Assembly (NCBI GenBank): GCA_019448385.1
Contig: JAGTXO010000013.1
Span: 372,001 to 436,000 of the forward strand
Length of the DNA: 64,000 nucleotides
Direction: 5' to 3'
From: Diacronema lutheri
Lineage: Eukaryota > Haptophyta > Pavlovophyceae > Pavlovales > Pavlovaceae
In this document: positions 4,601 to 9,655 of the stretch, piece after piece
Layout: each line of letters begins with the position of its first letter
Numbering within the stretch: position 1 is the first letter of the stretch
Translations under genes and position numbers: made by a program
Notes under the pieces: model-generated
Databases searched by the model: none
What the model was told of the DNA's origin: nothing
The model's input: only the letters and a program-made list of their open reading frames with translations

Positions 4601-7600
4601 CGCTTCATACTGGACGCCCTTCGCGCGCATCGCGAAGCGCCGTAATGGAGCCATTGGAACGTGCAGTCTGAGATCGTGAAGACGTGCATAACGTTCCAAT
4701 ATATCAGCGTTCTCCCTTCGCTGCGCTGGCGTCAGTGACGCGTCGCGTCGCGACGATGGCCGCGCGTGACGATGTGACGCGACGATCGTCGCCGTCGCGG
4801 CGTCGCGCGACGGTGACGAGTGACGGTCGCGAAGATCGACGCGACGATGAGCGCCGGCACACTTCCAACAGCTATGTCGCCAATAACCGCGAGCGCGTCG
4901 CCGTAGGCGTCTTCCCGGGGAGACGCATACGGCGACGCCCCTCCACTCGCGGCGGCTACTGGCATCGCCCACGACCACGTCGCGGAGCTTCGCCATGAAC
5001 CCGCTCTCAACCTGCTCGCCTCGCTCGCTCGCAATTACGTTGGGACGTTCGCGCGGCGCGAGGACGCGGAAATCTTTGGCTCCGCGCTCGCCGGCGTGCC
5101 ACAGGCCGGGCGCGCGGCTCTGCGGCATCGGCGCGTGTTCCCCGTCGATCTTGTCGTCGTGCTCAATGGCATGGGCTCGGCGCCCCAGCTTGCGCAGACA
5201 CCGTGCGAGCTCAAGTCGACTACATACTGCCCTACGCGCTGCGGCCACAGGCCGCTGAGCGGCGGGCGGTGGCCGTCGGCGGCGAGCGGCAACGCGCGTG
5301 CGCCCAGATCGACGGGGTGCCCTTCGACTTGCAGCCGGGCCAGGTGGGCCCAACGCAGGCGCGCCTCAACTCGTTCCCGCCGGTCCGCGCGCTGGTGCGA
5401 GCTGCGCCGCGCTCTCGATCGCGTCGGCGCCGCGCGCTCGCACCCGTCGCGAAGCGCGACCGGCGGCGGCGAGCGCGGCGCGCGCGCTCTCGCGCCACAG
5501 CGCGTGCGCGCCTGTCGCGGCGAACGTCGCGGCGCGCAGCCGCGCGCGCGCTGGGACGCGCACGTCGGCGCGCCGACGATCGCCGCGAGCGCATCCGCCG
5601 CGCCGCGCGTGTCGCCGTCGCGGAGCAGCACGAGCGCGCGCTGCAAGGTCGCCACCTGCCGCCAACCGCGCGCCACATTTGCGTCCGTGTCCAGCTCCGC
5701 CTTCGTGCGCACGTGGGCGGGCCGAGCGGCATTCGACTTGTTGGATGCTCCTTCTGGCCCGAGCGCACGCGCGTCATGGCCGCGCGCGAGCGCGACGACC
5801 GCGTGCGTGATCGCGCCGCGCAGCCGCTCCGCCGCCTCGAAGTGCTCGTCGCGCTCGAGGAGACGGAGCGCAAGCGCAGCTTCGCCGCCACCGCCGCCGC
5901 CGCCGCCGGCCAGGCGTTCGCGCTGCTCGTCGGCGGACGGAGCGTCGGCGGCGGCGTCGAGCGTCGCGGCCGAGCGCGCCACGTCGCCCGCCGCGCACTG
6001 GCACAGCGCCTCGCGCGCGGCGCGCGCGGCGATGCTCGCGCTCATCGCGGCGCCGACCGGCGCGCCGTCCATGCCGGCATCGTCACCGGCACCGACGAGT
6101 TGGCGCGCGTGTGCCGCGAGCGCCTGCAAGCGTTGCGTGCGCTCTGCGGCGGAGAGGGAGAGGAGGAGCTGCGCGGCCGAGCGCGCTGCGGCGCCGAGCC
6201 CGCGTGCGCCACCCGCGCCGGCCGAGCCGAGCGCGCGCAGCGTGGCGGACGCGTCGCCGTCGTTGGCCGCGCACGCGGCTGCGCGCAGCGCGGCGGCGGC
6301 GGGCAGTGCGGCGGCGGCCTCGGCGGCGGTCGAGATGGCCGGCGCGCCTGCGCCGTCCGCGCGGTCCGCCGCGAGCTCGGCGAGGGTTGCGAACCGCACG
6401 GCCGCGCCGTCGAGGTCGCTCGCGACAATCCGCGCGATCGCGCAGCGCGGCGCGCGGCGGCGGCGCGCTGGCCACGGAGGGGAAGCCTGCGGCGAGCGCT
6501 CCGGCGAGCGCGGCACGCGCGTCGGCGCACGTGCCAACGGGGGCGTCGGCGTCGAGCGCGCGCGCGGCGCGGCGCGCGACGTCGGCCGCGCGCGCGCGGC
6601 CGAGCGCGTCCGAGCGGCGCGCGGACTCTAAGCCGAACGTCTCGGCACACGCCGTGCACACCTCGGCGATGCGCGCGAGCTCGGCGCGCGCATCGGCCGA
6701 CGCACCGTGCGCGCCGGGCGCGTCGGCTTGACATGGGCGCCTGCGGCGTTGTGGACGGCGCTTGCCGCCGGCGCGGCGGCGGCTGCGACGGCGGGCGGAT
6801 CGCGGTGCGGGGTAGGTGCGTGGGGGTGTCCACCTCTACCGCGTCATGCCGCGTCCTTGCCGCTCGTGTCGTCCCCGCTGCCGGCGTGCACAGGGTCATC
6901 GCTCTGCCTGCGGACGTGCGCTGCGCGCTCTGTGCCGCTCGCGACGTTCGTTGCCTCGCGGCCAAGTTGACCGCCCACGCACCCACCTCGCTGTGCTTTG
7001 AGACTACGACGCACCTACCAAGTCGAGTGCATAGACATCACTGTGATTTGAGGCTACGACGTACTCGGCCGGATAGCGGGAGCAGGAGCAGGGCGCAGAG
7101 CGAGGAGTCACCGAATCTAAGTAGGAAGGGCCCCCCCCCCCCCCCCCCCCTCGCTGTTGCCGTCCGTTAGCACGGTGTTGGCGCACGACAGCATGCGCTC
7201 GCAGAAGCTCTCAGCCATGAGCGAGCCGACCTGGCCCCACGAGCGGCTCGCCATCAGCGGGATGTAGCCAAAGGTCGGATGCTTGTCGATGGTGCCGTTT
7301 ATGAGCAGCTTGCCGCGGTAGAATCTGCGGAGCGGCAGGCCGACGAGATCGTCGACCACATCGGGGCGCTGCGGAGTCTCGCAGCCGGGAAACTAGACGG
7401 CGCGGTTCACCTGCGTGTGCAGCCAGGCATCGGCCTGCGTCGTCACCCGCTCGCGCAGCGCGTGCTCGAGCGCGGAGTGGTTGGTCTGCTCGTCGGACAG
7501 CTGCGCCCGCGCGAGCGGCGTCCAACTACTCTCGAGCACATGCGGCGCGGCGCGCGTTGGCGTGGGCGGCACGCTCGCGGCTGCTGGGCAGGCAGCAGCT

Positions 7601-9655: not shown

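Follow-up and report, generated by a model that had tools for sequence, protein, structure and literature searches.

We analysed a 64,000-nucleotide window of the haptophyte Diacronema lutheri genome (contig JAGTXO010000013.1, positions 372,001 to 436,000 of the forward strand), which carries a 4,915-bp hAT-type transposable element at positions 4705..9619, with the transposase sense on the minus strand. The locus is probably the product of a recent insertion in which the transposase of a sister copy moved an element with a dead transposase, one of a multi-copy hAT-type family, into the AT-rich gap that separates two divergent open frames, where it landed beside the remnant of an older palindromic repeat. 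The insertion itself is real and recent. The 8-bp target-site duplication CAATATAT stands on both sides of the element (4697..4704 and 9620..9627), and the 11-base termini, CAGCGTTCTCC, form a perfect inverted repeat (4705..4715 on the plus strand, 9609..9619 on the minus strand), beyond which the left and right ends diverge. Both the duplications and the perfectly inverted termini had been described in a first-pass annotation of the window and were found at the ends that it gave.

The element has relatives throughout the genome. Across 43,492,796 bases in 103 contigs (43.49 Mb), CAGCGTTCTCC occurs 59 times (31 + 28), compared with 10 occurrences (3 + 7) of a reversed control pattern; the first-pass annotation had proposed that a lack of further copies of the termini would count against a transposon, and on these numbers the transposon stands. 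Copies were analysed in 20 fetched stretches, which yielded 17 end pairs (L026, L027 and L028 have none): 15 span 4,771–4,950 bp, one spans 2,342 bp and one, the short derivative L025, spans 596 bp. Perfect 8-bp duplications flank 14 of the 17 pairs, the window copy included, and every one is different; L017, L018 and L019 are the pairs without one. A or T occupies 84 of the 112 positions in these 14 duplications, and several of the copies were inserted at local dips in GC content. Over its full length, the window copy matches L024, on contig C89, at 99.65% identity, which, together with the perfect duplications, backs the earlier call of a recent event. Its identity is 97.2% to L021 and about 93%, over alignable bases, to the larger of the two subfamilies. 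When the genome was searched for a paralogous empty site (≤3 mismatches), the occupied site was the sole match, and in viral contigs neither the empty-site pattern nor a transposase pattern found a match.

Comparison with other copies indicates that the transposase of the window copy is dead and the element non-autonomous. Intact-looking copies carry two open frames of about 459 and 435–451 amino acids on one strand, and among the 17 paired copies both frames pass the motif test in at least five (L009, L011, L012, L013 and L016), a lower count in that L019 and L022 fail the test despite long frames. In the window, the exon 1 relic (8428..9475, minus strand, start approximate) has a frame break near its start, separating the MGAHL and KVWDDV parts, a TAG stop at 9169–9171 and, at 8653–8673, HGGGT where most copies have HDGGT, so that a conserved aspartate is replaced by glycine. 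At 8446–8490, about 21 bp stand in place of the roughly 225 bp of L009 that hold the SDRAA/SDRAAAG and CLMHDGDK blocks. A 92-bp intron follows (8336..8427, minus strand, GTGCGG...TTTAG), with boundaries that fit P0004, the product of a spliced MMETSP transcript. The remaining transposase survives as a relic at 7117..8335 (minus strand). Comparison with P0004, in which a short stretch between KSNQ and AIIKRDK is absent, places a probable second intron between about 8044 and about 7966. In-frame stops interrupt this downstream relic at 7395 and at 7119, its ESFCERML C-terminal block is at 7189–7212, and the sequence past DGNS is lost. What the first-pass annotation called a complete element is thus complete in its ends, which are intact, but not in its transposase, which has stops, a frame break and lost blocks. 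The run of 20 C at 7131–7150 reads with a different length from that of the C89 copy; a sequencing error may lie there, close to the place where the C-terminal end is lost, which counts against this account.

L024 has these lesions in common with the window copy (the same frame pieces, HGGGT and the absent blocks), and it occupies another target, where a perfect duplication of its own flanks it. The blocks are likewise absent from L021, which retains HDGGT. Since L024 carries the common lesions at another target, these predate at least one transposition, for which the transposase had to come from elsewhere, presumably from a copy whose transposase frames are open. Movement of a dead copy in trans is the strongest mechanistic claim of our analysis, activity being read from the common lesions and the perfect duplications. 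An intact sister copy would have supplied the transposase that cut and pasted the defective copy, which would have landed in the approximately 0.5-kb AT-rich gap between the two divergent open frames, beside the older palindromic repeat remnant, with a staggered cut giving rise to the 8-bp duplication. P0004, which is 91% identical to L016, has the same core conserved-block deletion as the window subfamily, so a deleted transposase copy is transcribed somewhere.

Three features back the first-pass assignment to hAT: the duplications are 8 bp long, the ends are short and read CAG..., and a relative of the transposase has a predicted Hermes-like fold. Terminal inverted repeats of hAT elements are typically short and start with CA or TA. 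VIA-align of the relative's model against Hermes revealed a similar catalytic-region fold with a helical insertion. The HDGGT, DRAA and CERM blocks are conserved in most copies and in the relatives that cover them, and are candidates for the D-D-E catalytic triad of hAT transposases; the window copy has HGGGT and no DRAA block. Relatives of the transposase include a 788-amino-acid protein of Obelidium mucronatum, a chytrid, and proteins of Cymbomonas tetramitiformis, a prasinophyte. An N-terminal BED-type zinc finger is frequent in the hAT superfamily, and P0020 and P0019 show a Cys/His pattern to the eye, with no Pfam match. The C-terminal block resembles the PF05699 dimerization region by eye, with no profile match in the transposase; the PF05699 profile does match five other loci of the genome (L037–L041), some of which have long open frames.

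Several results weigh against the hAT assignment, and they would suit a different kind of 8-bp-duplicating DNA transposon, outside hAT, whose transposase had converged on a similar fold. Pfam did not recognize the family, with no match worth naming in any of 13 aligned relatives, Foldseek gave no significant match to the transposase and searches of PDB sequences (phmmer, profile) gave no match of use. Profile comparison with two other hAT-like open reading frames of the genome aligned a corresponding stretch without significance (probability 0.9%, E 0.062). The model behind the fold match has a mean predicted local distance difference test score (pLDDT) of 54, and the match starts at residue 294 and omits the first core strands; in P0020, the strands predicted at 221–256, mostly at low confidence, may be the first RNase H-like core strands and lie outside the Hermes alignments. 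With nothing significant by Foldseek alone, the assignment to hAT is based on one low-confidence model together with the ends and the duplications. We consider a non-hAT origin very unlikely.

The first-pass annotation had placed the element inside a tiny intron of a host gene. Removing the element with one duplication does leave a stretch of exactly 54 bp, GTAAGG...CTCAG, as it had stated, with the candidate donor at 9639..9644 and the candidate acceptor at 4668..4672 (both on the minus strand), so that GT–AG boundaries flank the element. On this account, an intron of about 5 kb would be spliced out of a small host gene encoding 88 amino acids (MHW before the junction and RLHVPMAPL... after it), whose ATG stands 11 bases ahead of the donor, or out of the 5′ untranslated region of the neighbouring armadillo gene. 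Some observations favour it over an intergenic site. GTAAGG occurs only twice in the window, counting both strands, each time with YYCAG 34–281 bases on. In the downstream frame, the claimed exon 2 scores 0.184 over its first 160 bases (true-frame median 0.178, best-wrong-frame 95th percentile 0.185, for a score trained on four open frames taken as genes), a coding-like value that speaks for some host coding sequence at this place, and outside the part that matches other contigs the exon is single-copy. The last 96 bases are not coding-like in that frame (−0.127), and the test is not specific, because the left half of the element also scores well (median 0.161, best of six frames). Splice signals were compared at 16 insertion sites, the window's included and that of L025 left out: the strict GTAAGG..CTCAG pair appears at none of the 15 others, and a looser pair appears at L011 within 60 bases and at L016 within 150. 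The random control came from the window, joined site included; the strict pair occurred there at 0.08% of 8,383 positions and, among 202 low-GC positions, at 3.5%, and this locus alone could yield both values. With GTAAGG present only twice in the window and the strict pair at no other site, the splice-like motif is not a common coincidence.

Against the intron, the acceptor does not lie in single-copy gene sequence. A dispersed-repeat remnant occupies 4653..4700, and its part at 4653–4689, which matches other contigs, holds the acceptor together with 22 of the 54 intron bases and 15 bases of exon 2. The core of the repeat, TGCAGTCTGAGATCGTGA, has 53 matches genome-wide at ≤1 mismatch (25 exact, this site included in the 53), compared with none for the control. 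The joined 88-amino-acid peptide had no relative at E ≤ 1 in a search of 5.8 billion proteins that included D. lutheri annotations (7 word-sharing candidates), and for its 80-amino-acid part the genome offered no better candidate paralogue than a 33% match (E 0.78). Furthermore, the downstream frame is open without splicing and has its own ATG slightly downstream. The intron reading is therefore possible but not supported, and we consider it unlikely. A variant combines the two, in that an exonized palindromic repeat would supply the acceptor of a real small intron, into which the 4.9-kb hAT element later landed, to be spliced out along with it. This we regard as quite unlikely; if true, it would be a repeat-born intron that hosts a second transposon while the gene is kept.

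An intergenic insertion is the simpler reading of the site. On the left, an open frame with an armadillo repeat extends over 1671..4415 on the minus strand (Pfam Arm, E 4.6e-9 for 1671–4322; candidate ATGs at 4415, 4406 and 4313), and on the right a divergent frame with no Pfam match extends over 9855..11450 on the plus strand, its first ATG at 9855. Once emptied, the gap between them would be about 516 bp and AT-rich, possibly a shared upstream region.

The repeat at the left edge of the insertion forms an imperfect inverted repeat here, with a z score of −4.5 for the DNA fold of 4645–4704. Its second arm overlaps the left target duplication, and the hAT target itself is likely to be part of the repeat. 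The TATATTGGAACGTGCA that adjoins the core in other repeat copies has 56 matches (control 0), with the window not among them; the window arm next to the hAT target agrees with the other copies over TATATTGGAACGT only. Copies of the repeat (TATATTGGAACGTGCAGTCTGAGATCGTGAGGACGGCATGG...) were seen in the window (4653–4700), in L030 (1501–1536), in L031 (about 1426–1600) and in L034 and L035; of the core matches genome-wide, some form inverted pairs and many lie on contig C53. The repeat was not identified as a known RNA: Rfam gave only two matches, both microRNA hairpins in L031 and both below gathering scores.

The half of the element outside the transposase (4990..6760) has long open frames with no clear codon-position signal between subfamilies, and its origin as a captured host gene is not supported. 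No close unique host source was found among the matches listed (40 of 185 and 40 of 309 candidates scored). The left half (4860–6760) is also present at 84–97% identity on contigs C3, C5, C47, C53, C73 and C85, among others, at sites without exact ends nearby, which are perhaps older or truncated relatives.

Some other family copies have unusual surroundings. L018 and L019 have common flanks and no 8-bp duplication, in the order TTAATACC-GTATTAA-element-TTAATACC, an arrangement that excision or repair with a subsequent 7-base inverted addition might have left. On contig C22, L032 and L033 (109408–109528 and 127136–127256) are exact mirror images, outer flanks included, suggesting a large palindrome or an assembly fold-back there. 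A giant composite transposon formed by this end pair, 17.7 kb apart, was ruled out, the outer flanks being exact mirror copies as far as read. A preference of the family for hairpin targets was also ruled out: at 15 distinct sites (L018 and L019 counted once for their common flanks), the 60-base empty sites had z scores of −1.4 to 1.4, resembling 60 AT-rich background stretches.

These findings show that a haptophyte genome that is small and compact harbours a hAT-type family with multiple copies. The main text of the D. lutheri genome paper gives a GC content of 73.25%, assigns the majority of annotated repeats to long terminal repeat (LTR) elements and long interspersed nuclear elements (LINEs) and contains no word starting with ‘transpos’ (PMC8379373). 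A literature search on hAT transposons and haptophytes found nothing, and one on Pavlova, transposon and hAT listed none on the subject by title. The transposase lineage escapes current Pfam profiles yet has relatives in O. mucronatum and C. tetramitiformis, suggesting that such elements may be under-annotated.

Among known systems, Hermes of the house fly, a hAT element, shares with the predicted catalytic region of the transposase relative a similar fold. It has no sequence similarity to the window family by phmmer or by profile search of PDB sequences, and the window element differs from it in its second half, which shows no clear coding signal. In another haptophyte, Tisochrysis lutea, hAT families are described as having near-identical copies, as in the D. 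lutheri family, and one of them, Ace, is reported to be expressed, with its transposase detected (PMC5963040). A parallel in mechanism would be with Ac/Ds-type pairs. In such pairs, defective copies with good ends are moved by the transposase of intact copies. The likeness lies in those defective copies with good ends, and D. lutheri also has the 596-bp L025 with its own duplication; the systems differ in that movement in trans in D. lutheri is read from common lesions and perfect duplications. The lesions that the window copy and L024 have in common provide a clear example of the movement in trans of a defective copy.
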